A stretch of DNA of 63,516 nucleotides, from positions 1-63,516 of the forward strand of contig JAFVGK010000067.1 of assembly GCA_017475035.1 (NCBI GenBank). Direction: 5' to 3'. Within the stretch, counting starts at the first letter, position 1. Each line of letters begins with the position of its first letter. A program made the translations under genes and the position numbers. Below are positions 34,594-63,302 of this stretch, in pieces. This DNA comes from Blautia sp. (lineage in GTDB: Bacteria > Bacillota > Clostridia > Lachnospirales > Lachnospiraceae). The notes beneath the pieces were generated by a model that worked only from the letters and a program-made list of their open reading frames with translations, had not been told where the DNA came from and ran no database searches.

Positions 34594-37500
34594 TCAGCCG
34601 GCATTCTCTGCTTTCCACGCTTTCTTTTTCTTAATGCTTTTAACAAGCATGATCAGGCAGATCAGGGTCAGAAGTCCGGTAAATCCGATCAGGCCATAGA
34701 TCGCCAGCTGCCACCATGGCGTATTCGGGGCAATGTGGGTCTCATTGGTCCAGCCGTTCATGGCGTTGGAATTAACGACCGTGTAAAGAATACGATGCAT
34801 CGCTTCACGCATCTCTGCGACCATATAAGGATCGCCGCCCATCGTAGAAGCTGCTACCGTGTGAATCATCGGCATCGGGCTGTCCCAGATATCGGAACCG
34901 CCGATCAGACCGTCCGCGACATCCATGTAATTGCTCAGGCCTGAGAAGTCCGTGATGGACATGCCGCGCATACCGCACTCATCGCGCAGATAAGCCGTCT
35001 GCAGATTGTAGTTCTCACCGGACCACTGTGTACCCCAGCGGTTGAAGCCGGACATGACGCACCATGCGCCGCCGTCGATAATCGCGCGATCCGCGACTTC
35101 AAGATAAAGCTCTCTCGCCGCCTGTTCCGTCAGCCAGGTATTTACGCCGCGACGGGAGGTTTCGGAATCATTCAAGGCGACATGCTTTAAGTATACGTAA
35201 ACGCCCTTGGACTGAATGCCCCTGGTCTCCGCGGTGCAGATCGCTCCGGCTACAAAGGGGTCTTCGGAATAATATTCAAAGTTTCTGCCGGAATACGGAG
35301 TTCTGTGCATATTGATTCCGGGTCCGTAAAGTCCGGAATATCCCATTGCCAGGCAGTCATTACCGATGCAGCGTCCCACGTCCTCCATCAGCTCAACGTT
35401 CATCGTTGCAGCCATTACGTCTTCAGAGGTGTAGCACATCGCGGAAGCACCGCCGACAAGAGAAGCCGTCAGACCCTGCGGGCCGTTCTCGTCCTTTGTC
35501 GCCACCTTGGAAACGGATTCGCAGGCAGCGGTGTTGTGGAAGCCCAGGGTAATCGTATTGACCATTTCCTCAAAGGTCAGCTGATCAAGCAGCGTATCCC
35601 ATCTTTCATCATCAAAATCCGCGCCAATCATTTCTGAAATCGACATCTTCCCGCCGGAAGCGGTAGTCGGCATCGGAGTATCAGCATGATCCGCTGCATT
35701 ATACAATGTAAAGGCAAGAGCCGCAGCAAGGTCATCATTTGCGGAAAGAACCGTTCTGGCAGCCGGGAATGTTCCCTCCCAGTCAGAGCGGCTGAGGAAC
35801 GTTACCTCTCCCGGAGCGACAGAGCTCTTGTTCGGGTCAGATTCATCAAAGAGGTTAGTGATCGGGTTTCCGGTTGCTTCGGAAACAGCATAGGTTGTCT
35901 GATCTAAGGCTTCGTTTTTCCAGACATAAGTCATGTCGGCATTTCCGGCTGCGTCCATGCCATCGGATTCTTTATAGCCCTTTGCGGCAAGAATGTTATT
36001 GATGGCTTCATGAGAGCCCATAGCCACAGTAAAGTAATAGTCTCCCTCATCCAGAATGTAGGTCTTTGCGTTATTCGCGTCATAGGTACGAAGCTCTCTC
36101 TTCGGCACCGTAACCGTAACCGTTTCGGATGCGCCGGGTTCAAGAACCGCAGTCTTTCCGAAGCCGCAAAGTTCAACGGAAGCTTTCTCAATTCCATTTT
36201 CCTTATCATATTCCGTATATGGGGACTGGAAATATACCTGAACCGTCTTCTTACCGGCTGTTTCACCGATATTTGCAACATTTACGGTAACGGCAAAGCT
36301 GTCATCAGCCTCTTCGACCGCAAAATCACTCAGTTCAAATTCGGTATAGCTCAGGCCATAGCCAAAGGGGAATGCAACTGTTTTAGAATAATCAAAATCG
36401 CCAGCCTTATCCGTTTTTAAAACCACGTCCTCATACCGGGTTTCAGGATAACGGTAGCCTAAATAAATGCCCTCCTGGTAAACGCTGTACATACCCTGCA
36501 CATCGCCGCCTTCCAGGGAAAGATTGTAAGCTTCATATCCCTGATAAGGAACCGTATAGAAATTCACGACGGCAGGATTTGCCATATTGTCATACCAATA
36601 GGTATCCACAAGAGAGCCGGACGGAGCCGTCTCTCCGGCAAGCAGGCGTCCTACGCCGTTTGCGCCGGTCTGGCCGACATCACCGATCCACATGCAGGAA
36701 TCAATGCCATAGTCTTCTCCGCAGATTTCCGGATTCAGGAAATCCAGCTCGATCGCATTCGAGGTATTGAGAAGTACTACAATCCTCTTGAAGGTGCCGT
36801 CATCCTTCAGGGCTTTCAAACCCGCGAGAAGGTCTCTCTCTTCCTGAGAAAGGGAAAGATAATCGCCGTCTCCTTCAGCGCCCATTCCATATTGAACCTC
36901 TGCCATGTTGCTGGAAAGATCCTGTTCCTGTGTTCCTCCCTCTCCCACCTGGCTTGTAACATTTGTGGAAGTAGTCAAAGAAGCACTCGGGTCCCCATCC
37001 GGAAGATCCGCGCCTTCACCGCCGGAACGGGAGAAGACAACGATCGCGGCATCGCCATACTCGGCGAAGGAAGCACTGTTGTCTTTCTCCACCTCAGCCC
37101 AGGGCGCTTCATTTACCGCATACTGGGTATTTGCCGCCAGCTGGTCGGAGATCGCTGCCGGAGTAACACGGCTATACTTGTCGGACTTCGATACATACCA
37201 GTCCCAAAGTCCCTGATTAATCTCGATCCCCTGATCCTTCAGAGCATCCTTCAGGGAAGGCGCTGCGCTGGTATCGACAGAACCGGATCCCGTGCCGCCG
37301 TACATCAGATCTACGCTGCCTCTTGCAAACAGAGAAACCTTTGCTCCGGAAGCAAGCGGAAGCGCCGCATTGTCGTTTTTCAGAAGAGCCGCGCCTTCCG
37401 CTTCCACATCCGCGCAAAGCTTCTTCTCATAATCCCAGCGGGCGTCATCCGACTCAAAATCCCCGGAAAAATAGACGGCATTCTCGTCGAACCCGACAAC

Positions 37501-37656
37501 CTTGGAATAGGATGTACCTAAAGCCACGTTGATTGTTGTCGCATACATGTTTGCAATGTGATTTCCTACGATAGACGCAATCGTGAGGATGGCGCAGAGA
37601 GCAGTCAGCACAGACCACAACACTACTTTTGGTTTCTTTGCCTTCTTTTGATTCAT
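34594..37656 (-). CDS. Membrane-anchored GH3 glycosidase with reversed domain order
   Basis: Beta-glucosidase/xylosidase-type enzyme of 1020 residues. The ATG at 37656 follows AAGGAGG. An N-terminal membrane helix (about 10-32) comes first. Next is the alpha/beta sandwich domain usually C-terminal in GH3 (FARGSVDLMYGGTGSGSVD) and a fibronectin-like domain (FGYGLSYTEFELSDF). The TIM barrel comes last, with nucleophile Asp in RGMSITDFSGLS (about 903). A second membrane helix closes the protein (LAIYGLIGFTGLLTLICLIM). Reversed GH3 enzymes are known from ruminal Clostridia. Here anchors at both ends would hold the catalytic part outside the cell. Confidence 0.93.
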   Translation of the reverse strand: MNQKKAKKPKVVLWSVLTALCAILTIASIVGNHIANMYATTINVALGTSYSKVVGFDENAVYFSGDFESDDARWDYEKKLCADVEAEGAALLKNDNAALPLASGAKVSLFARGSVDLMYGGTGSGSVDTSAAPSLKDALKDQGIEINQGLWDWYVSKSDKYSRVTPAAISDQLAANTQYAVNEAPWAEVEKDNSASFAEYGDAAIVVFSRSGGEGADLPDGDPSASLTTSTNVTSQVGEGGTQEQDLSSNMAEVQYGMGAEGDGDYLSLSQEERDLLAGLKALKDDGTFKRIVVLLNTSNAIELDFLNPEICGEDYGIDSCMWIGDVGQTGANGVGRLLAGETAPSGSLVDTYWYDNMANPAVVNFYTVPYQGYEAYNLSLEGGDVQGMYSVYQEGIYLGYRYPETRYEDVVLKTDKAGDFDYSKTVAFPFGYGLSYTEFELSDFAVEEADDSFAVTVNVANIGETAGKKTVQVYFQSPYTEYDKENGIEKASVELCGFGKTAVLEPGASETVTVTVPKRELRTYDANNAKTYILDEGDYYFTVAMGSHEAINNILAAKGYKESDGMDAAGNADMTYVWKNEALDQTTYAVSEATGNPITNLFDESDPNKSSVAPGEVTFLSRSDWEGTFPAARTVLSANDDLAAALAFTLYNAADHADTPMPTTASGGKMSISEMIGADFDDERWDTLLDQLTFEEMVNTITLGFHNTAACESVSKVATKDENGPQGLTASLVGGASAMCYTSEDVMAATMNVELMEDVGRCIGNDCLAMGYSGLYGPGINMHRTPYSGRNFEYYSEDPFVAGAICTAETRGIQSKGVYVYLKHVALNDSETSRRGVNTWLTEQAARELYLEVADRAIIDGGAWCVMSGFNRWGTQWSGENYNLQTAYLRDECGMRGMSITDFSGLSNYMDVADGLIGGSDIWDSPMPMIHTVAASTMGGDPYMVAEMREAMHRILYTVVNSNAMNGWTNETHIAPNTPWWQLAIYGLIGFTGLLTLICLIMLVKSIKKKKAWKAENAG

Positions 37657-37750
37657 GATGCTTCCTCCTTTTTGTTTTTCCGCTGTTCTTATGAGGGTCA
37701 GACAGCGGTTATATTCAAACATCCTTTCAGGGGATGCTTTGAATCTCCAT

Positions 37751-39694
37751 TCAGACCCAGTTCGCACTCTTTGATTTTGATTTTACGAGCTTATAGGCAG
37801 GATTCGGCTGATCCACCTTACGAAATACTGCCGTATCTTCGCAGGAGCCGGCAACAGCTTTCACTTCATGCTCTTTCGTAAGCGGAATCCTGAACGTGAA
37901 AACATGCTCTCCGGAAGCGTTTCCCGCTTCCTTTCCGTCAAGATAAAGCTTCACCTCTTTCTGGTTCGTATAAACCTTTACCTCAATTTCGGATTCCGTC
38001 CGATCCGTAAATCGCTTGGAACAGATATGGACAAAGGGATCCTCTGACCACCACGCCTTATAAAGATAGAAGCTGTCTTTCTTTGTTTTACGGTCAAAAG
38101 TTATCATGCCTTTATGGTTCATGCCGGGCTCGCCGCCCTGATCCCTGGCATCTGCGGCAAAGTCAAACATATTCCAGATGTGCGTTGCCCAGAGGAAATG
38201 ATTCCTCCGGAAGCACTCAAGCATATATTCATGGTAAATCGCCTGATATTCTTCCGTATGGTCACCGCGTTTCGGATGGCTGGAATGAAGATTCGGCATT
38301 CCCTCCGCACCATACTCAGAATATCCCAGGCAACGTTTCGGATAAACCAGATGGAAAAATCTCATCCAAAGATCATTCAGCCACAATCCCGGCACGTACC
38401 AGCCCAGATACAGGTTCCAGCTGACAACATCGGTAATATGCGCTGCTTTATTAAACGGACCGCACATGGCATAGCAGGCCAGCGTCGTAAACCGGGTCGG
38501 ATCCATCTGATGGCACAGATCATTCAGCACATGATGATTATCCAGCATATCTGCCTTGTCTTTCGTGGAAATCGTGATCTCGTTGGATACACCCCAGCAG
38601 ACGATGGACGGATGATTGTAATTTTGCGTAATCAACTCCTCCATCTGGCTGATGGTGTTTTCCCTTCCGCCAGGCATATGCTCGGAAATATACGGAATTT
38701 CGGCCCAGACAACCATTCCCCGCTCGTCGCAGAGATCATAGAAAAACTGGTCATGCTGATAATGTGCCAGGCGGATTGTATTCGCCCCCATCTCGCAGAT
38801 CAGATCCATATCTTCGATATGCATTTCTCTGGTAATCGCGTTGCCGAGGCCTTTTCGATCCTGATGTCTGGAAACGCCATGAAGAGGATAGCTTCTTCCG
38901 TTCAGGAAGAATCCCTTTTCAGGATCATATGAAAAATCTCTTACTCCAAATCGCGTCTTTACTTCATCTATGGTTTTACCCCCGCAGATCAGCCTGGCCT
39001 CGGCAGTATAGAGATTTCCTTTTCCGATCCCATCCCAGAGCAAAACATTGTCAAAGCCGATTTTGCAGACCGCGTTGCCTGAAGAAAGCTTCCCTCTGGC
39101 ATCTGCGGCCTTATGCCCTTTCGGGTCAAGAATGGAAACTTCGATCTCTCCTTCCGGTACATCCGCCCAGGTCTCTACCTCAACCTCGACAGACTGATAG
39201 TCCTTCACCGGTTTTGCCGTAACCTTGATTCCCTCAGAACCCAGCCGGTCAAAAGAAAAATGACATTCCGGGACGATGCGGAGCAGAACATCTCTATAGA
39301 TACCGCCATAGAACGTAAAATCCGCTTTTTGCGGGTAAACCTTGTCATTGACACTATTGTCAACCTGAACGGTGAGCCGGTTTTCATCCTTCAGGATATC
39401 CGTCACATCAAAACGAAAAGTAGAATAACCTCCGTCGTGAGTACCCAGCAGAGTCCCGTTTAATTCCACCCTTGCTGAGGCGTTCACTCCTCTGAACTCC
39501 AGATAAACCTTCTCTCCCGCCTCCGTAACCGGCTTTGTAAATACCTTATGATACCTGCAGGTCCCACGAAAGTAATCATTCCCGCCATCCTGTCCGTCAA
39601 CCGCATTCCATGTATGCGGGATATCTACAGATTGTTCCTTTCCGTCTTTGTAAACAAACGTCCAGTCCCTGTTGATTATTATTTCCCTTCTCAT
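37751..39694 (-). CDS. GH2-family glycoside hydrolase (beta-galactosidase/glucuronidase type)
   Basis: Cytoplasmic exo-beta-glycosidase, 647 residues from the ATG at 39694 (AGGAAAGAG upstream). Jelly roll with GYSTFRFDVTDILKDENRL, Ig-like domain, then TIM barrel with GVSRHQDRKGLGNAITREMH. The acid/base Glu is in WGVSNEITI (about 372) and the nucleophile Glu in LGYSEYGAEG (about 459). The sugar specificity cannot be fixed: the NxK motif of glucuronidases is not clear, so galactosidase is more likely. First gene of the operon with GH3 and the GPH symporter. Confidence 0.92.
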   Translation of the reverse strand: MRREIIINRDWTFVYKDGKEQSVDIPHTWNAVDGQDGGNDYFRGTCRYHKVFTKPVTEAGEKVYLEFRGVNASARVELNGTLLGTHDGGYSTFRFDVTDILKDENRLTVQVDNSVNDKVYPQKADFTFYGGIYRDVLLRIVPECHFSFDRLGSEGIKVTAKPVKDYQSVEVEVETWADVPEGEIEVSILDPKGHKAADARGKLSSGNAVCKIGFDNVLLWDGIGKGNLYTAEARLICGGKTIDEVKTRFGVRDFSYDPEKGFFLNGRSYPLHGVSRHQDRKGLGNAITREMHIEDMDLICEMGANTIRLAHYQHDQFFYDLCDERGMVVWAEIPYISEHMPGGRENTISQMEELITQNYNHPSIVCWGVSNEITISTKDKADMLDNHHVLNDLCHQMDPTRFTTLACYAMCGPFNKAAHITDVVSWNLYLGWYVPGLWLNDLWMRFFHLVYPKRCLGYSEYGAEGMPNLHSSHPKRGDHTEEYQAIYHEYMLECFRRNHFLWATHIWNMFDFAADARDQGGEPGMNHKGMITFDRKTKKDSFYLYKAWWSEDPFVHICSKRFTDRTESEIEVKVYTNQKEVKLYLDGKEAGNASGEHVFTFRIPLTKEHEVKAVAGSCEDTAVFRKVDQPNPAYKLVKSKSKSANWV

Positions 39695-41325: not shown

Positions 41326-42102
41326 TTACGGCATTGTACTGCGATGATATTCCCGCATGATTTCCTCAAGCTTTGCATCAATATCAGCCGGCATGATGGC
41401 CTGTTGATCCTTTTCCTCAAAAGCCTGTATTTTCAGCTTCACCTTGTCAAGGACTTCGTCTCCCGCGCCAAGGCCTGCAGCGTAGGCAAGGTATGCATCT
41501 CCGTCATAGAACGTTCTGGCGGCGAGAAGACAGCTGATCAGTTCCTGTTCGTCTTTTGACTGCTCATATGCCTTTGCGAAAAGCTCCGCAGCCTTCTCCA
41601 TCTGGAAAAGCCTGCTGTAAGCACAGCCGAGATTATGGCAGATATTTCGGGTAAGACCGCTCTGATCCTCCCCTTCTTCCGAAAGAAGCTCCGTATACAG
41701 ATCAATTGCCTTTCGGTACATCCCGTTTTTCATGAATGCGTCGCCCTTTTTTTTCCGTCTTTGTCTGGAAGGCATGGCGTCCATTTCTCTCAGTTCCACA
41801 TTCAGTTTTTTCAGTTCTTCATAGGAAAGATAATTGATCTCCTTAAAAATCGGATAAATCAGGTCTCCTGTGGACACAGCCTTGGAAAGATAAGGCCGAA
41901 GCCTCTGTGCGAGAGCAGGCAGCTTCAGCTCTGTTGCCAGCCAGAAACACAGTTCTTCATTAAACAGGCTTTTATCCGCAAGGTACAGATTATGGCACAG
42001 ATAATAACATAACTCCTCTAACGAGAAAATATTCATCTGTATGTTCTTGATAAAAAACGGTGTCGTTGCCCTGGGTGTCTGACAGAGAATGTATCCGCCC
42101 AT
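41326..42102 (-). CDS. TPR-containing protein of the 1175-aa protein operon
   Basis: A 258-residue cytoplasmic protein. The C-terminal half contains TPR-like repeats: KNGMYRKAIDLYTELLSEEG (about 124-143) and HNLGCAYSRLFQMEKAAELF (about 154-173), then a helical tail. The N-terminal part (FSLEELCYYLCHNLYLADKS) is helical and unassigned. The ATG at 42102 lies directly behind a G-rich ribosome site. Nineteen bases separate it from the actin-fold gene, so it is likely a partner of that protein. Confidence 0.78.
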   Translation of the reverse strand: MGGYILCQTPRATTPFFIKNIQMNIFSLEELCYYLCHNLYLADKSLFNEELCFWLATELKLPALAQRLRPYLSKAVSTGDLIYPIFKEINYLSYEELKKLNVELREMDAMPSRQRRKKKGDAFMKNGMYRKAIDLYTELLSEEGEDQSGLTRNICHNLGCAYSRLFQMEKAAELFAKAYEQSKDEQELISCLLAARTFYDGDAYLAYAAGLGAGDEVLDKVKLKIQAFEEKDQQAIMPADIDAKLEEIMREYHRSTMP

Positions 42103-42121
42103 CCCTCTCCCCCCCTTTGCT

Positions 42122-43396
42122 TCATGATTCCTGTGACTGGGCGCTTTGCCACTGCACCACCTCTGTCCACACCTTCTGGCTTGAAGGAAACATCTCTCCA
42201 AAGCCCAGATCCGTTACCTTGATGGAACAATCGTCCCGGTTCAGGTAAGACATTTCCAACAGCAATCTGGTGGTTCTTTCCGGGCGCTCGGGCAAATCCT
42301 CCAGCTTCATCGCGACTTTCTTTTTTTCCTGACTTCCGGCAGATGAGATCACAAAAACAAGCTCCGTCATCTGATCCAGGATCATCTCCACTCTTACATG
42401 ATACTCGTACCAGTTCTTTCCTGCATCTATCAGAGAATAATAAGTCGGGGCGCCCATGATGCGCATCTCCATCCCTACGTTATCCAGTACCATATTATCG
42501 CTGAAAAATCGATACCCCTTCAGGTTATTGTCTTCTTTTCTCTCCTTGGCAGCCGCGCAGGCTCCCTTGCTGAAAAGATTGTTTCCGTAAAAAACCTTTC
42601 TTTGCTGCTGGCAAAGCACCGGAATGCTTCTGACCGCCCATTCCTGAAAAAAGCTCTTCCCGGTCAGAAGTATCGTAGAATACAGCTCCGTGCTTAACGT
42701 TTCCTTGACAAAAAGAGTCAGTTCATCATCCCATTTTGTCTGCTCCTGGGACAGTTCCCTCTCTCCCTGCATGGCCAGGCGGATCGTAATCGGGGGCTTG
42801 CCGGATTGTACCGATAATCTGCGAAATCTGACAATGCTTCCCGAAAATTCATACCACCCGATATTGCGGTTCCAGTTTTCTCTTCGGGAAGTCATGGCAT
42901 AATAGAAAAACGCCTGCGCATAATCCAGAAGAAAATACTCCTCCCTTCCGAACCCCATCTCCTCACACGCCGCGGTTATATTCTTAACCAATGCAGGTGT
43001 CAGGACAGGTACGGCAACCGCAATGCATCTGGTATTTCTTACAGGATTTGTCAGGCCGCTCAAGCCTAACAACCCCTGGAAAAAACCGGCAAGTATTCCG
43101 GAAAGAGGCATGCGCTCGCCCCCCACCAGGACTTCATCTTTGTCAGATTCCGCAAGGGTATACAGATCAGATAATAATATTCCCTGATTCTGAGAAGAAA
43201 AGAATTTTGCTTCACTTCCGACATGAAACCCTTTTCGTCCATGACGGACACAGACTGCCGTTGGTATCTCATATTCCTTGCTTCCGACTACCTCTTCCAG
43301 GGATGTCGGCTCCTGCGCCTTTCTGTCATAGAAGGTAATCTGTGAAGCTTCTCTGCCAAAATCAATCCCGAAGATAACGTCCCGTGTTTCTTTCAT
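42122..43396 (-). CDS. Degenerate actin/Hsp70-fold ATPase-like protein (DUF5716-like)
   Basis: A 424-residue protein. The N-terminus IFGIDFGREASQITFYD matches the phosphate-1 loop of Hsp70/actin proteins. ILLTGKSFFQEWAVRSIP and later FYGNNLFSKGACAAAKE resemble the adenosine and connect motifs. The phosphate-2 loop is poor (WYEFSGSIVRFRRLSV instead of DLGGGT), so ATPase activity may be reduced. The ATG at 43396 follows AGAGGG. I recall a Pfam family DUF5716 of this kind in Lachnospiraceae but cannot check. It lies 82 bp after the 1175-aa gene. Confidence 0.75.
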   Translation of the reverse strand: MKETRDVIFGIDFGREASQITFYDRKAQEPTSLEEVVGSKEYEIPTAVCVRHGRKGFHVGSEAKFFSSQNQGILLSDLYTLAESDKDEVLVGGERMPLSGILAGFFQGLLGLSGLTNPVRNTRCIAVAVPVLTPALVKNITAACEEMGFGREEYFLLDYAQAFFYYAMTSRRENWNRNIGWYEFSGSIVRFRRLSVQSGKPPITIRLAMQGERELSQEQTKWDDELTLFVKETLSTELYSTILLTGKSFFQEWAVRSIPVLCQQQRKVFYGNNLFSKGACAAAKERKEDNNLKGYRFFSDNMVLDNVGMEMRIMGAPTYYSLIDAGKNWYEYHVRVEMILDQMTELVFVISSAGSQEKKKVAMKLEDLPERPERTTRLLLEMSYLNRDDCSIKVTDLGFGEMFPSSQKVWTEVVQWQSAQSQES

Positions 43397-43477
43397 TCTA
43401 CCCTCTTTTTCTATCCCTCCACACAAATGACCGCATCGCAGAAAACTGATTGCGAATCGCTGTGAAAGTCTTGAAAA

Positions 43478-46400
43478 TCACTGTAAAACAAACATCTCGT
43501 CTGCATAAGCTTCCTGTCGCAGATAGTCCTCCATCCCGGCAAAAACCTCTTCTGTTTTCAACGCTCTTCGGGCAGAGAGCATCTGATTGATCCTCTGATA
43601 TCTGCTCAAGGAAGAATTTTCAATTTTAGACAATGTCAACACCCGCTCCGATGTACGGAAGGTTCTGTCCCTGCACTCCACCTGAAAATAATAGTGGATG
43701 CTCTCTCCATAAAACAAAGCGAATGGCCGGTTGAAAATCCCCTGATACATTTCAGGCATAACCTCGCTGCGATACTGTGTCTTGGAGCCCAGGCCGGTAT
43801 CCAGCCGATAATGAAGAGTGATTTTGGCATTCGGGTCTTCGTGCAATTCCACGTAGACTTTATCCTCCAGTTGATACGGCGCAAGCAGCTTAGGCGGAAG
43901 ACGCCGGAAGAAGCTGAAGGTCATCTCTTTCTCCTGACATTCCCTCAGCATGGTTTCTTCGATCTTCGCTACCGGAAGATCCCTGGTTTTTCCTCTGGAA
44001 ACCTCTTTAAACAGAGCAAGACGGCAGATCCAGTTCGTTTCCCATTTCCCTTCATACGCCTGGTAGAATAGTGAAAGCACCCCCGGACTTACCGCATATT
44101 CCTTCACAACGCTTCCATACGCAAGATGGGACAGGTAAGCTCCGATCACTTCGTTTTTCCCATCATGAGAAAGATAAGCCTCTAAGATCTCCTCACTATC
44201 CTTTCGGTAATCACAGACAAACATCAGCAGGGAAAGGATTTTCTCTTCCAGCCCGCCGACATCCATACCATGCGAAACCATGCTTTTTCTCAGATCATAC
44301 AGAAATGAGATGGTTCCAAAACAATGCGCGGAAAGATATCGAAGCGTTCCGGCATCGAAATAGTGATCCCTGTAAAGCTGCGCGGCAAGCACAAACAATT
44401 CCTGGTCTTCTTCTCCGGCAACGGCTTCGACCCGGTTGCTGCACAACGTCAGCAAAAGATCATTGGCCGTTCCCTCTGTTCCGAAAGACTCCACCAGTTC
44501 CATGGCCCGGTCATATAAACCTCTCCGGATCAGGACAGACAGAAGCTTTGCTTTGTCAACCCCTGCATATTCCGCAAGATCCATCCTCATCAGCTCTGCT
44601 TCCAGGCCCTGTTCTTTGGCGGAATCATCAAACCAGTTCAGAATCCTTCGGCGAATCTGCGCTTTATACTCTTCCGTAAAAGCATCTGAATGAGCCAGCC
44701 TCTGAAAGAAAGAAACACTTCCCCTCGAAACATCCTGACCCTGCGCATAATGCAAAAGCAGCCCGGCATCCTCCACTCCCATGGCGAGCACCTGTTGAGC
44801 CAACGCTTCATCATCCAAAAGCCGGGTCAATTCATATTCTACGGTTGCCTCATATCTTCTCTGTTTATCATCCTGAAAAAGAATGACTGCATCCTTTGTA
44901 AACAGTCTGGGATATGCCACCCCTTTATTTAAAGGATATATTTCTTCTCTGACCAGCTGATCATGCCGGACAATCACCTGCCGCATAGAAGAGTTTTTAC
45001 AGATCAGCTGATGGGTAAACATCAGTCTCGAAACAGCCACGGCCTCTGCCACATTTTCCGGCTGCGGAAAAAACTCACGGTAAATAACCGCATGATCAGG
45101 GCTGATTTTTCCCTGCTGCAATTGCTTTGCGGCAAACTCCTTCATATGTACCTTATATAATCCATAAGTAGAAGGATCTGTCGCTCTTCTTCTGATGACG
45201 CCTGAATAGAGATACGCTTTCTTTGCGTCACCCAAAGAATCTGTATTATATTTAAAATACAAAAGCAGCGGTCTCGGAAGATCGACATAAGAAGCCATAT
45301 CCAAAGTCTCTATGAAATACTCATATAGCCTTGTGATCCTCAATCCTTTGTTGACGGCAAGGGAAAACCAGCGGAAATATTCTTTCTTTCGCGGGTTTCC
45401 GCGGATAATATATTTGCACAGGGCCTCCAGAGTTTCATCCAACGGATACACTTCATAACAAAGCATCAGTACCTTTTCGACCAGCGGAGAATAATCCTTG
45501 TCATATCCGCTCAGATATGCAAAGCGCATGGAAAGCTCCTGGGTCATAAGGCTGTTTTTTGCCGCGAACAAGAATGCCTGCACGTTAAAGGTACTTAACG
45601 TATGGATGGAACCAGGCTCCTCTAAGATACACTGCCAGGCTTCTTCATAAAGGAAAGGACTGTTGCAGCCTCTGTTATAAAGCTCTTCCATACGGTACAA
45701 CGCACGAATGGGATTTGTCAGCTCATGATCCAGCTGAAGCAAAAACCACAGAAGGATAAAGCTGTCGCCTTTGAGCATATATAGATTACGCAGCCTTGCT
45801 GCCACATGATCATAGTCCGTGCTCATGCCTGTCATCAGGCTCAGATAAAGATACCCACCCTCGATCACAGCCTCATCCGAAGAAAAGGATCTGCCAATCA
45901 AAGGTTCCAACAGCGCCCTCGCCTGTTCGTCTTTCTTTTCCTGGTGGAAAACCCAGGCTTCATACAGGAGATAAAACAGATTTTCCTCATCCATCTCCCT
46001 CAGCTGATGGAGGCAATAATGTGTCGATACAACCCACTCATTAAATGAAGTCCTCTGGCACTGGTAATCCAGATAGTCCTTCATCAGAGAAAGCCTGTAG
46101 CTCTTTTCCTGGGAAACACTCTGCAGATCCCGTCTCCTGGAAGAGGATACCATCACCAGAAAACGTTCCTTCTGATAAGGAGTCTTTAAAATCAGTTCTC
46201 CATACTGCCGGCCGGAACCGACCTTTGAAGCATCGATCACATACTCCACTTCATAACGGCTTCCGATAAAATCATCATTGGTTATTACTTTTCGTACCGG
46301 TTTGAGGAAATTTCCTTTCGTCTCAATCTCAAGGCGCAGATGCCCCCAGGTAGATCGTACGACAGTGAAGGATTCCCGTCTTGTCTGATCCAGGCTGTAA

Positions 46401-47005
46401 TATTCCGATTGTTTTTCCGGAAGTGATATCAGAACCTGATCCTTCAATCTGGATGCAATCAGATATTCCTCAAGGTTCTGGAAGGTGACTGTCTGCTGGG
46501 AAAAACATTTATATCTGGCTTTTTCTTTATGTGTCGCATCGTGCAGGAGCTGACTGTATTCTGAGGAGATAAAGATTCTGCAGGCTTCCCGGAAATCCCC
46601 TCTGGCAATCTGGGCAATCTCCTCATGAGAATGAACAGCGCCGAGAACGCTTTTCAGTTGTTTCTGTTCTGTGCAGATTTCAAAGGCAAGCCTCCCTTCA
46701 CCAATATTCGTGGTAAAAAGAAGCCAGCCTTCCACCTTTTCACCCGGTGACAGCCCAACGGCGTCCACGCCGTAGGGAAGACATACTGTCTGCCCGGAAA
46801 ACCTGGTCAATCCGGGTACCAGCCGACGGCTCGTAGAAGAAATATATCCCCGGACCGGCTGTTCGTCAGCCGCTCCAAGATAAATCTCGCTCTGCAACGT
46901 CTGACCGGCTGGCAGCGTCACGGAAATCTTTTCCTGCGAGAATAGTAGTTTTGGCTGCTCGTAAACAAATTTCCCTTCCAGCAGCTCTTTCATCCTCTTC
47001 TCCAA
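43478..47005 (-). CDS. Giant protein of unknown function (DUF5717-like, 1175 aa)
   Basis: No enzyme motif, signal peptide or membrane helix is evident. The N-terminal third is beta-rich with two Ig-like parts (SEIYLGAADEQPVRGYISST and VRSTWGHLRLEIETKGNF). The middle is long and helical, resembling a TPR-like solenoid (LFYLLYEAWVFHQEKKDEQA). The C-terminus is again beta-rich (YHYFQVECRDRTFRTSER) with a helical tail. The frame opens with TTG at 47005 (GGAGG seven bases upstream); an ATG at 46993 is possible. I recall Pfam DUF5717 for such proteins. It starts 13 bp after trhP. Confidence 0.75.
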   Translation of the reverse strand: MEKRMKELLEGKFVYEQPKLLFSQEKISVTLPAGQTLQSEIYLGAADEQPVRGYISSTSRRLVPGLTRFSGQTVCLPYGVDAVGLSPGEKVEGWLLFTTNIGEGRLAFEICTEQKQLKSVLGAVHSHEEIAQIARGDFREACRIFISSEYSQLLHDATHKEKARYKCFSQQTVTFQNLEEYLIASRLKDQVLISLPEKQSEYYSLDQTRRESFTVVRSTWGHLRLEIETKGNFLKPVRKVITNDDFIGSRYEVEYVIDASKVGSGRQYGELILKTPYQKERFLVMVSSSRRRDLQSVSQEKSYRLSLMKDYLDYQCQRTSFNEWVVSTHYCLHQLREMDEENLFYLLYEAWVFHQEKKDEQARALLEPLIGRSFSSDEAVIEGGYLYLSLMTGMSTDYDHVAARLRNLYMLKGDSFILLWFLLQLDHELTNPIRALYRMEELYNRGCNSPFLYEEAWQCILEEPGSIHTLSTFNVQAFLFAAKNSLMTQELSMRFAYLSGYDKDYSPLVEKVLMLCYEVYPLDETLEALCKYIIRGNPRKKEYFRWFSLAVNKGLRITRLYEYFIETLDMASYVDLPRPLLLYFKYNTDSLGDAKKAYLYSGVIRRRATDPSTYGLYKVHMKEFAAKQLQQGKISPDHAVIYREFFPQPENVAEAVAVSRLMFTHQLICKNSSMRQVIVRHDQLVREEIYPLNKGVAYPRLFTKDAVILFQDDKQRRYEATVEYELTRLLDDEALAQQVLAMGVEDAGLLLHYAQGQDVSRGSVSFFQRLAHSDAFTEEYKAQIRRRILNWFDDSAKEQGLEAELMRMDLAEYAGVDKAKLLSVLIRRGLYDRAMELVESFGTEGTANDLLLTLCSNRVEAVAGEEDQELFVLAAQLYRDHYFDAGTLRYLSAHCFGTISFLYDLRKSMVSHGMDVGGLEEKILSLLMFVCDYRKDSEEILEAYLSHDGKNEVIGAYLSHLAYGSVVKEYAVSPGVLSLFYQAYEGKWETNWICRLALFKEVSRGKTRDLPVAKIEETMLRECQEKEMTFSFFRRLPPKLLAPYQLEDKVYVELHEDPNAKITLHYRLDTGLGSKTQYRSEVMPEMYQGIFNRPFALFYGESIHYYFQVECRDRTFRTSERVLTLSKIENSSLSRYQRINQMLSARRALKTEEVFAGMEDYLRQEAYADEMFVLQ

Positions 47006-48371: not shown

Positions 48372-49025
48372 CTATAATTTCACCGTAATACTGACTCCAT
48401 CGGCAACCGGCAGAATCGATGTAGTCACGGAAGGATCATGGGTCAGCCGATACAGATAAGCGCGCAGTCTGCGATAAATCGTACGATCCCGACGTTCCAG
48501 CAGCACATGAGGACGGATCAGATCCAGATCCATCAGAATATTATCCGTCACCAGCATGGAACCTTCATGCATCAAAGCGAGAATATCATCAAGCCAGTGA
48601 AGATACTGTCCCTTAGCCGCATCCTGAAAGATAAAATCATAAGTACCGGTAAGAGCAGGCAGAATATCCGATGCATCCCCTTCGAGCACGAGGATCTGTT
48701 CGCTGCGGCCGGCTTTTTCTATCAGCTCTCTTGCCCGTTCAGCACGTTCCTGATCCAGTTCGATCGTAGTCACTTTCATGTCCCGGGGACCATGCTCACA
48801 AAAGAAAAGAGCGGAAAACCCGATCGCTCCTCCGATTTCCAAAAGATGCTTCGGCGCTTTCGCCGCAAGCAATGTACGAAGCAATCCCTGGGTCTGGGGA
48901 CGGATGACAGGAATCCGTTCTTCTCGTGCCATAGCTTCTGTTTCCTGCAAAAGCCGCGGGTTCTCTTCATATAAAGAAGAAAGAAAGATGTTCATCCGTT
49001 CTTCTGGCCAATCATCCGGATTCAT
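48372..49025 (-). CDS. trmR: tRNA 5-hydroxyuridine methyltransferase (TrmR)
   Basis: SAM-dependent O-methyltransferase turning ho5U34 of tRNA into mo5U34. It has 217 residues. Motif I LLEIGGAIGFSALFF (about 81-95), ELDQERAERARELI, then DFIFQDAAKGQYLHWLDDIL with the metal-binding Asp, as in O-methyltransferase family 3. Its start overlaps the preceding stop as ATGA. Pairing with trhP supports the specific function over catechol-type methylation. Confidence 0.88.
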   Translation of the reverse strand: MNPDDWPEERMNIFLSSLYEENPRLLQETEAMAREERIPVIRPQTQGLLRTLLAAKAPKHLLEIGGAIGFSALFFCEHGPRDMKVTTIELDQERAERARELIEKAGRSEQILVLEGDASDILPALTGTYDFIFQDAAKGQYLHWLDDILALMHEGSMLVTDNILMDLDLIRPHVLLERRDRTIYRRLRAYLYRLTHDPSVTTSILPVADGVSITVKL

Positions 49026-49423
49026 CCCTTTTTGTCTTCCTCCTCTTCTTCACCGGCTAAAACACCCATAATACGTGTCGGAGTATAAGCAGTACTCAAC
49101 GTATAAATCCCGGGATTCAGCTTTCCCCTGTAATTTGACAGAATCTCCTGTACATAAAATACCCTGGCGTCTGAAACAAGCCCATTCACCTTCAGAACCT
49201 GTCCAATCTGATAATCAGACGCGCCCTGAGGTATGACAACGGTCACCATCTCTCCCTCGCCAGGACTGATCGCCTGCTGATTAAAGACCTGGTAGCCAAA
49301 CTGATAGGACTGTTTTCCCAGCCAGAAGACCAATACCGCGACACACACGTAGAAAATAATATGAAAGATCAGACTGACTAAAGCGAGTCCCGCACGCTCC
49401 ATCTTTCTACGTATCTTTCCCAT
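49022..49423 (-). CDS. MltG/YceG-like protein lacking the catalytic domain
   Basis: A 133-residue membrane protein. One helix at about 12-36 (LALVSLIFHIIFYVCVAVL) is followed by a LysM-like domain, VTVVIPQGASDYQIGQVLKV and LNPGIYTLSTAYTPTRIMGV. Full MltG continues about 200 residues with the lytic transglycosylase domain; here the frame ends in an acidic tail. The position matches yrrL (mltG) in Bacillus. Probably non-catalytic peptidoglycan binding. ATG at 49423 follows AGGT. Confidence 0.82.
   Translation of the reverse strand: MGKIRRKMERAGLALVSLIFHIIFYVCVAVLVFWLGKQSYQFGYQVFNQQAISPGEGEMVTVVIPQGASDYQIGQVLKVNGLVSDARVFYVQEILSNYRGKLNPGIYTLSTAYTPTRIMGVLAGEEEEEDKKG

Positions 49424-61379: not shown

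Positions 61380-63302
<1,923 letters not shown>

Follow-up and report, generated by a model that had tools for sequence, protein, structure and literature searches.

DnaK and other Hsp70 proteins (PF00012) consist of an actin-type nucleotide-binding domain (NBD) followed by a substrate-binding beta domain. The DUF5716 protein described here shares this arrangement, colinear by both profile and structure, although it lacks the ATPase residues and the C-terminal lid, and neither an Hsp70 partner nor GrpE is found at its locus in the Lachnospiraceae. Hsp110 (Sse1) is related to Hsp70, assists a second Hsp70 and combines ATP binding with a long C-terminal extension; DUF5716 is likewise an Hsp70 relative, the extension being a feature of Hsp110. 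In the part of PMC7083937 that concerns it, Ssz1 of RAC is described as a non-canonical, lidless Hsp70 that does not hydrolyze ATP and forms a stable complex beside an active Hsp70; it is eukaryotic, has the J-protein Zuo1 as its partner and still binds ATP. DUF5716 resembles this portrayal of Ssz1 in being a lidless Hsp70 relative predicted to be without ATP hydrolysis, but its proposed partners are a TPR protein and a DUF5717 protein rather than a J-protein. According to the relevant sections of PMC7159879, GAP1-N2 GTPase neighborhoods, centered on the GTPase and GAP1, regarded as conflict systems and associated with multicellular prokaryotes, can include an HSP70, a GrpE, a second HSP70 from which the peptide-binding domain is missing, and FNIII-TPR proteins. 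Bacterial DnaK duplications are surveyed in PMC11019930, and the larger cluster reported below likewise has additional Hsp70 genes; the main text of that survey has no words beginning Lachnospir, Clostridi or pseudo. In the open-licence literature, we found no publication on DUF5717, one for DUF5716 that is unrelated by its title, and no title that describes the operon.

The window, a stretch of 63,516 nucleotides from Blautia sp., contains three adjacent ORFs on the same strand (Table 1), as a sequence-only reading of this DNA had already noted. In gene order from trhP, the intergenic gaps are 13 bp, 81 bp and 19 bp; the first and last agree with that reading, which gave the middle one as 82 bp. 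The TTG start of DUF5717 at 47005 agrees with the family consensus start in the alignment, and the DUF5716 start is the ATG at 43396, which follows AGAGGG, the longest possible ORF beginning at 43426. The Pfam names that had been given for the first two proteins were correct: DUF5717 matches PF18984 (residues 1-860; E 8e-228; 758.9 bits, cut-off 25) and PF18983 (residues 867-1172; E 1.5e-76; 258 bits, cut-off 25), and DUF5716 matches PF18980 (E 2.9e-91; 305.9 bits, curated cut-off 34.7). The third protein is a TPR protein, as proposed (TPR_7, E 5.5e-8; 32.7 bits, cut-off 27.9), and has a conserved N-terminal motif (alignment A8, 37 rows).

Table 1. Features of the three-gene locus in the window
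Feature	Coordinates	Strand	Extent and basis
DUF5717 protein	43478-47005	-	1175 aa; ORF and PF18984/PF18983 matches
DUF5717 domain 1	46631..46984	-	residues 8-125; profile-profile comparison
DUF5717 domain 2	46106..46420	-	residues 196-300; homologous to domain 1
DUF5716 protein	42122-43396	-	424 aa; ORF and PF18980 match
DUF5716 actin/Hsp70-type nucleotide-binding domain (predicted)	42533..43384	-	transferred from L068 model
DUF5716 substrate-binding beta domain (predicted)	42152..42514	-	transferred from L068 model and profile
TPR protein	41326-42102	-	258 aa; start ATG 42102; TPR_7 match

Searches of the PDB with the single window proteins gave no convincing match. The DUF5716 family profile matched DnaK (2v7y, E 2.2e-8) with the NBD and the substrate-binding beta domain colinear; the second colinear segment (profile 346-405, DnaK 398-461) is weak taken alone (6.8 bits). 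An AlphaFold model was made on a natural DUF5716-TPR fusion, L068, which was chosen for its long frame and is 22% identical to the window DUF5716. This model (pLDDT 91.6) has DnaK 7krv as its best Foldseek match (E 3.4e-16), the alignment extending over 535 columns against a 538-residue DnaK chain, and identity in the structural alignments is 9-14% among the matches listed. The best 50 Foldseek rows also include RAC/Ssz1 (7x3k at rank 26, 6sr6 at ranks 48 and 49) and Hsp110 Sse1 (2qxl, rank 47). Residues ~300-420 of the model, which follow the NBD, are all-beta and correspond to the substrate-binding beta domain; the helices beyond them in the fusion are those of the TPR protein. In unfused DUF5716 proteins we found no helical lid (SBD-alpha), their C-termini lying shortly past the beta domain in the alignment rows inspected (every third row). 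The profile and structural matches thus agree with the actin/Hsp70 fold and Hsp70-type ancestry that the sequence-only reading had proposed.

At the positions of DnaK D8, T11, K70, E171, D194 and T199, the window DUF5716 has D, R, Y, Y, E and I, consistent with the earlier description, in which the phosphate-1 loop was good and the phosphate-2 loop poor. The six residues are jointly intact in none of the 58 family DUF5716 proteins, and K70 and E171 are each absent from all 58, while D8 is retained in 47. By its sequence, DUF5716 is an Hsp70 with an NBD and a substrate-binding beta domain but without a lid or an intact ATPase site. Loss of its ATP turnover, which had been suspected before, is probable from these substitutions. 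Six positions are invariant among 63 DUF5716 proteins: G252, F255 and G283 in the NBD, and D401, G403 and G405 in the beta domain, the latter three being what an important binding role of the beta domain would predict. DUF5716 diverges rapidly (median identity 26.5%, versus 86% for DnaK in 5 sequences).

The two N-terminal domains of DUF5717 are related to one another (hhalign 95.6%, E 1.2e-8) and, by our reading, putatively beta-rich. A candidate third copy in the C-terminal part (1030-1150) was rejected, scoring 1.6% and 0.6% against the first two. The two domains are followed by a putative long, TPR-like helical part and a C-terminal part, and TPR_2 matches 6 of 19 homologues of the C part. 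The DUF5717 profile found nothing convincing in the PDB (best E 0.071), and a Pfam scan gave no FNIII match alongside the tandem domain and TPR-like part.

Across the family, DUF5717 and DUF5716 are each present in 197 of 200 genera and are both absent from the same three. The sequence-only reading had regarded the three genes as a dedicated unit, to be doubted if they were rarely adjacent or if structure prediction showed no actin fold; the model described above has that fold, and DUF5717 adjoins DUF5716 in 125 of 127 genomes. All three genes occur in a single order in 63/63 loci read, and DUF5716 and TPR form one ORF in five of these, although such fusions are rare (4 in the 60 loci chosen without regard to frame length). 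In one genome (G224), DUF5717 is placed away from DUF5716-TPR. Given PurB, the evolutionary distances of the three proteins correlate (0.79, 0.72 and 0.62), which can also reflect linkage and species history. The suggested link to tRNA modification through trhP did not hold, since no trhP homologue was found near the trio in any of 62 other family loci or in the 20 larger-cluster loci read; in the three genomes where both could be placed, the distance to trhP is ~40 kb in G311 and ~85 kb in G247, and in G023 the two are on different contigs. Linkage to folT is likewise not conserved.

In other families of the same order, the homologous genes belong to a larger cluster, DUF5717-Hsp70-GrpE-DUF5716-Hsp70-Hsp70/VWA, then TPR, whose order is identical in 20/20 loci as far as the sequence stretches reach. 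The sequence-only reading did not include this cluster, with its three intact Hsp70s and GrpE protein, and its layout appears to be undescribed. The three companion Hsp70s retain all six ATPase residues in 19/19, 16/16 and 10/10 sequences (45/45 in total), whereas the six are jointly intact in 0/16 cluster DUF5716 orthologues; D8 and D194 are retained in 14 of these 16, and with D8 also kept in 47 of the 58 family proteins, nucleotide binding by DUF5716 may persist. Two cluster DUF5716 proteins match both DUF5716_C and HSP70 in Pfam (1.8e-25 and 1.9e-16 in L188; 2.2e-33 and 1.8e-14 in L187). In the tree, family DUF5716 and the cluster orthologues form one clade (0.98), whose sister is Hsp70-B (1.0). 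A RAC-like J-domain partner was sought, and there was no DnaJ match in the eight window proteins or the cluster proteins scanned. DUF5717 residues ~1-300 and ~300-1170 are encoded by two separate genes in 12 of the 20 other-family loci.

Among 103 genomes outside the family, DUF5717 was found in 43, the cluster GrpE in 43 and both in 42. The two lie within ~10 kb on one contig in 31 of these 42; ten of the remaining 11 belong to one family (f68), and the two genes are on different contigs in all of the 11 except G449, where they are ~45 kb apart on one contig. Beyond the order there were eight weak matches, and the five read (all but G167, G172 and G897) are TPR-type or unrelated genes with no Hsp70 cluster.

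From the predicted gene order and flanks, the family trio and the larger cluster look like occupants of the same chromosomal place. A divergent aminotransferase lies upstream in 26/63 family and 10/20 larger-cluster loci, and valS flanks 10/63 family loci and 4 of 12 stretches downstream of the larger cluster, 11 of which have TPR and 5 a coiled coil; most flanks are not common to both. These common flanks point to one locus from which four genes are gone, and therefore to a family that kept the scaffold and the dead Hsp70 and lost the ATP-cycling Hsp70s and GrpE; that this is loss rather than gain rests on the order-wide spread and the common flanks, not on a rooted reconstruction. A full-length protein of the cluster GrpE type was found in 0/200 family genomes. 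Family genomes carry six further Hsp70-like frames, of which G000 has three and G386, G349 and G311 have one apiece (a marginal frame on G000 C162 is left out of the comparison). They were considered as cluster Hsp70s, and four of them score best to DnaK. The G349 frame is slightly nearer Hsp70-B (111.6 versus 95.7 bits) and that of G311 has a single, weak match, to Hsp70-VWA (17.6 bits). None of the six scores above 260 bits with the cluster profiles, whereas true cluster Hsp70s, although themselves part of the training set, reach 902-1400.

We consider it rather probable, from these comparisons, that the trio encodes one complex, the descendant of a dedicated Hsp70 chaperone machine that was once larger. 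An alternative to which we give appreciably less credit, though more than to any other, is that client handling ended with the loss of the ATPases and that the trio now forms a structural or membrane-tethered assembly, with DUF5716 as an Hsp70-shaped interaction platform like other actin-fold pseudoenzymes. The absence of an intact ATPase site and the fast divergence of DUF5716 would suit a static role of this kind, as would a coiled-coil membrane protein directly after the trio in 31/63 family loci (two hydrophobic stretches in 27 of the 31, one in 4) and the coiled coil downstream of some larger clusters; but three of the six invariant positions fall in the substrate-binding beta domain, and 32/63 loci have no such membrane protein next to the trio. 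It was rejected as a conserved fourth gene of the window: a search of 18 genomes recovered it from 2, and it was not found in the genome of the window.

That the genes form a biological-conflict, defense-like chaperone-threshold system is improbable. With the GAP1-N2 neighborhoods, as far as PMC7159879 presents them, the larger cluster shares HSP70, GrpE, another HSP70 with one domain missing, and a putative beta-repeat protein fused to TPR; its Hsp70s, GrpE, VWA, TPR and tandem domain are like ingredients, and its evolution is very fast. The GTPase and GAP1 that define those systems are, however, absent from the scanned cluster proteins of L188, L187 and L192 (no Pfam/NCBIfam match). The three window proteins have no PADLOC match, and those of the cluster Hsp70s and of the coiled coil are weak (E 4e-5 to 5.5e-9); presence in nearly all genera is unlike that of patchy defense genes. 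Least credible, and already contradicted, is that unrelated genes are held together by neutral operon history alone. Neighbors do change, as trhP and folT illustrate, and in G224 the trio is split; yet adjacency is nearly constant, the genes are jointly absent from the same three genomes, fusions occur, and their order is kept even though four interleaved genes differ between the two loci.

If the trio does form a complex derived from an Hsp70 machine, the TPR protein would bind DUF5716 directly, as suggested by the single chain that both form in some species. DUF5717, with its paired N-terminal domains and long helical part, could be a scaffold on which both client and pseudo-Hsp70 are held, and the DUF5716 beta domain would serve as a clamp or adaptor for clients that needs no ATP and does not cycle, comparable to yeast Ssz1. 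Clients might be handed to the housekeeping DnaK, a step proposed from co-presence, or just be kept assembled. Since the genes are nearly universal in the family but change very fast in sequence, their clients may be specific to each lineage and quick to change, or the proteins may assemble with themselves. Chaperone function might have been lost altogether in the family. More tentatively, and with somewhat less than even confidence, we propose a multi-Hsp70 operon, undescribed before and present in one bacterial order, that comprises three ATP-competent lidless Hsp70s (one VWA-fused), an exchange factor with a GrpE domain, a dead Hsp70 and TPR-type scaffolds. One entire family would have dropped all of its ATP-using parts, keeping the dead Hsp70 and scaffolds as a core chaperone complex that evolves fast, works independently of ATP and is the bacterial equivalent of Ssz1. 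Hsp70 action is usually explained through the ATP cycle. If the proposal is true, a lineage in which the dead Hsp70 is the sole survivor of such a set, in nearly all genera sampled, would offer a natural experiment on ATP-free Hsp70 action, and the unnamed Pfam families DUF5716 and DUF5717 would gain a testable identity.

On the minus strand of the window, three adjacent genes encode DUF5717 (1175 aa), DUF5716 (424 aa) and a TPR protein (258 aa), as the sequence-only reading had proposed, and each has a Pfam match (see table). For DUF5717 and DUF5716, Pfam supplies names and no function, and neither has an NCBIfam model. A hydropathy scan predicted no membrane segment for any protein of the window trio; among family homologues it predicted one in 3 of 63 DUF5717 and 1 of 58 DUF5716 proteins. 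The trio of the window sits in a gene setting unlike that of other loci: its trhP, O-methyltransferase, RNase J, mtaB, 136-aa ORF and folT are absent from all other loci searched, and the suggested link to tRNA modification through trhP therefore did not hold up.

Genes of the window and of two comparison loci
Feature	Location	Strand	Remark
DUF5717	window 43478-47005	-	Pfam match
DUF5716	window 42122-43396	-	Pfam match
TPR protein	window 41326-42102	-	Pfam match
dnaK	window 61380-63299	-	canonical; 14 kb from trio
MltG/YceG-like stub	window 49022-49423	-	133 aa
GH3-like protein	window 34594-37767	-	1057 aa
Larger Hsp70 cluster	L188 1672-14676		best example
Coiled-coil membrane protein	L082 5651-6847		family locus

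Two other genes of the window were read in passing: the MltG/YceG-like stub covers only profile positions 1-66 of 275, below the Pfam cut-off, and the GH3-like protein, read from its translation alone, has hydrophobic ends and two GH3 halves that seem order-swapped.

Of 196 genomes drawn from across the class, 8 matched DUF5716_C, and all 8 belong to Lachnospiraceae, the family of the window. Among 200 genera of this family, 197 encode DUF5716 and 197 DUF5717, the same three genomes lacking both; these are drafts of 140-210 contigs, in which an assembly gap is possible. The expectation that the genes co-occur was confirmed: DUF5717 and DUF5716 are adjacent on one strand in 125 of the 127 genomes for which both places were listed (in one exception both genes lie at contig ends, in the other they are on separate contigs and not near an end), and the trio is complete, in one order and on one strand, in 63 of 63 loci (the window, two chosen for odd frame lengths and 60 chosen from lists). 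DUF5716 and the TPR protein form a single reading frame in five of these, namely four of the 60 listed loci and L068, itself chosen for its frame; one locus has an additional 270-aa frame between DUF5717 and DUF5716. A coiled-coil membrane protein of about 395 aa lies directly 3' of the TPR gene in 31 of the 63 loci, with two membrane stretches in 27 of the 31 by hydropathy scan; it was matched in 2 of 18 genomes searched and was not found in the genome of the window. The trio proteins diverge fast, with a median pairwise identity of 25-27%, as compared with 86% for DnaK (five sequences) and about 84% for PurB (23 genomes). Their inter-protein distances correlate at 0.79, 0.72 and 0.62 allowing for PurB, and at 0.66, 0.72 and 0.43 with PurF instead (17 genomes), which linkage and common history may also explain.

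The actin/Hsp70 fold first read in DUF5716 is borne out by two comparisons. A profile of 63 DUF5716 proteins matches DnaK in the PDB along the initial portion of the nucleotide-binding domain (E 2.2e-8), and a second, colinear segment matches the substrate-binding beta domain weakly (6.8 bits). The natural DUF5716-TPR fusion at L068 (709 aa, 22% identity to the window DUF5716 in the alignment) gave a structure model with a mean pLDDT of 91.6 and a pTM of 0.82, and nearly all of the 50 PDB matches listed were Hsp70-type chains (best E 3.4e-16), RAC/Ssz1 and Sse1 among them; TM-scores were modest (at most 0.39 of the query in the rows listed), the query including the TPR half. When six ATPase positions (DnaK numbering) were scored on a MAFFT alignment with DnaK, none of 58 family DUF5716 proteins had all six intact: Lys70 and Glu171 were kept in none, and Thr11 and Thr199 in one protein apiece, while 47 proteins retain Asp8 and 24 retain Asp194. 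As no protein retains the full set, ATP hydrolysis by DUF5716, though not necessarily nucleotide binding, is unlikely, in agreement with the weak or absent turnover initially suspected.

A DUF5717 profile search of the order Lachnospirales was positive in 57 of 117 genomes, comprising every one of the 14 Lachnospiraceae genomes and 43 of the 103 from elsewhere in the order. We read 20 of these 43 other places, together with 12 downstream stretches, and in all 20 the gene order, within the stretch, was DUF5717, Hsp70-A, GrpE protein, DUF5716, Hsp70-B and Hsp70/VWA; four loci are cut off early, three by the end of the contig and one by the end of the stretch read. DUF5717 is encoded by two genes in 12 loci and is one gene in five, while its N part was undetected in three. 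The labels come from profiles built partly from the same 20 loci; the family's own profiles independently match the DUF5717 and DUF5716-like genes, and in two loci (L179 and L189) DUF5716 was assigned by position only. The downstream stretches contain the TPR protein in 11, the coiled-coil protein in five and valS in four of 12. At L188, Pfam detects HSP70 in A (E 1.8e-77), B (E 2.5e-57) and the VWA protein (E 2.5e-95), where a VWA domain follows HSP70, as well as a GrpE domain (E 1.4e-14) at the C-terminus of a protein of about 600 aa, and the DUF5716 orthologue matches both DUF5716_C and HSP70; at L187 the four proteins scanned agree. All six ATPase residues are kept in A (19/19), B (16/16) and Hsp70/VWA (10/10), and in none of 16 cluster DUF5716 orthologues (Asp8 14/16, Asp194 14/16). 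In a tree of 92 sequences, for which the 58 family rows had been reduced to 21, family and cluster DUF5716 group together (0.98), sister to B (1.0) and then A (1.0). Several families of the order carry three putatively ATP-competent lidless Hsp70s, one of them VWA-fused, with a GrpE-domain protein, an apparently undescribed cluster.

Outside the family, the cluster GrpE protein occurs in 43 of 103 genomes (matched partly or in pieces in ten), 42 of which also have DUF5717; one genome has DUF5717 only and one GrpE only. Carriers include Defluviitalea phaphyphila, Petrocella sp. and Candidatus Epulonipiscium MAGs, and none of the 41 database titles of carriers, as displayed, bears a Lachnospiraceae label. 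In 31 of these 42 genomes the GrpE and DUF5717 genes share a contig and are no more than about 10 kb apart; ten of the remaining 11 belong to a single other family (f68), in part of which the cluster is therefore broken up. In wider searches, the cluster-type DUF5717 profile matched 13 Lachnospiraceae genomes plus four marginal ones among 293 of the class, and four Lachnospiraceae plus four marginal genomes among 348 of the phylum; in the five of eight marginal places inspected, no such cluster was found.

Within the family, a full-length cluster GrpE protein was detected in 0 of 200 genomes, the 25 matches being 24 short ones to the GrpE end only and one other fragment, all in frames of 200-263 aa. 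An HSP70 census of 20 genomes found the three cluster Hsp70s besides DnaK in all eight other-family genomes, and cluster Hsp70s at the trio locus in none of 12 family genomes; four family genomes contain a further six Hsp70-like frames, none of which closely resembles the cluster types. Three of the six are in the window's genome (5.03% listed contamination), on contigs C171, C150 and C167, with lengths of 671, 878 and 580 aa, and are DnaK-like, not cluster-like. On the upstream side, a divergent CobD/HisC-like aminotransferase gene is present at 26 of the 63 family loci and at 10 of the 20 from the cluster; on the downstream side, valS is present at 10 of 63 family loci and in 4 of 12 cluster stretches. 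These common flanks point to one chromosomal place for trio and cluster, and therefore the simplest explanation is that the four interleaved genes were lost from it in Lachnospiraceae.

Hsp70 systems are already known; the four-Hsp70 cluster and its ATPase-free remnant appear to be a new version of them, and we found no description of DUF5716, DUF5717 or the operon among the open-licence PMC papers listed. Of the published layouts encountered, the closest is the HSP70/GrpE theme in GAP1-N2 neighbourhoods (PMC7159879, section 29), although those have GTPase and GAP1 parts, neither of which we found in the cluster proteins scanned. By analogy, the nearest working model for DUF5716 would be yeast Ssz1, described as binding ATP without hydrolysing it, lacking a lid and handing nascent polypeptides on to an active Hsp70 (PMC7083937).

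We propose that the TPR protein binds DUF5716, that DUF5717 serves as a scaffold, and that the DUF5716 beta domain would clamp clients or partners without ATP; the chief rival is that the complex is a static scaffold rather than such a clamp. In the other loci read, the neighbours of the trio differ from those in the window, where dnaK is nearby. The active partners of DUF5716 in larger-cluster species would be Hsp70-A, Hsp70-B and Hsp70/VWA with the GrpE protein, while in Lachnospiraceae DnaK would be the obvious candidate, or the complex may act alone.
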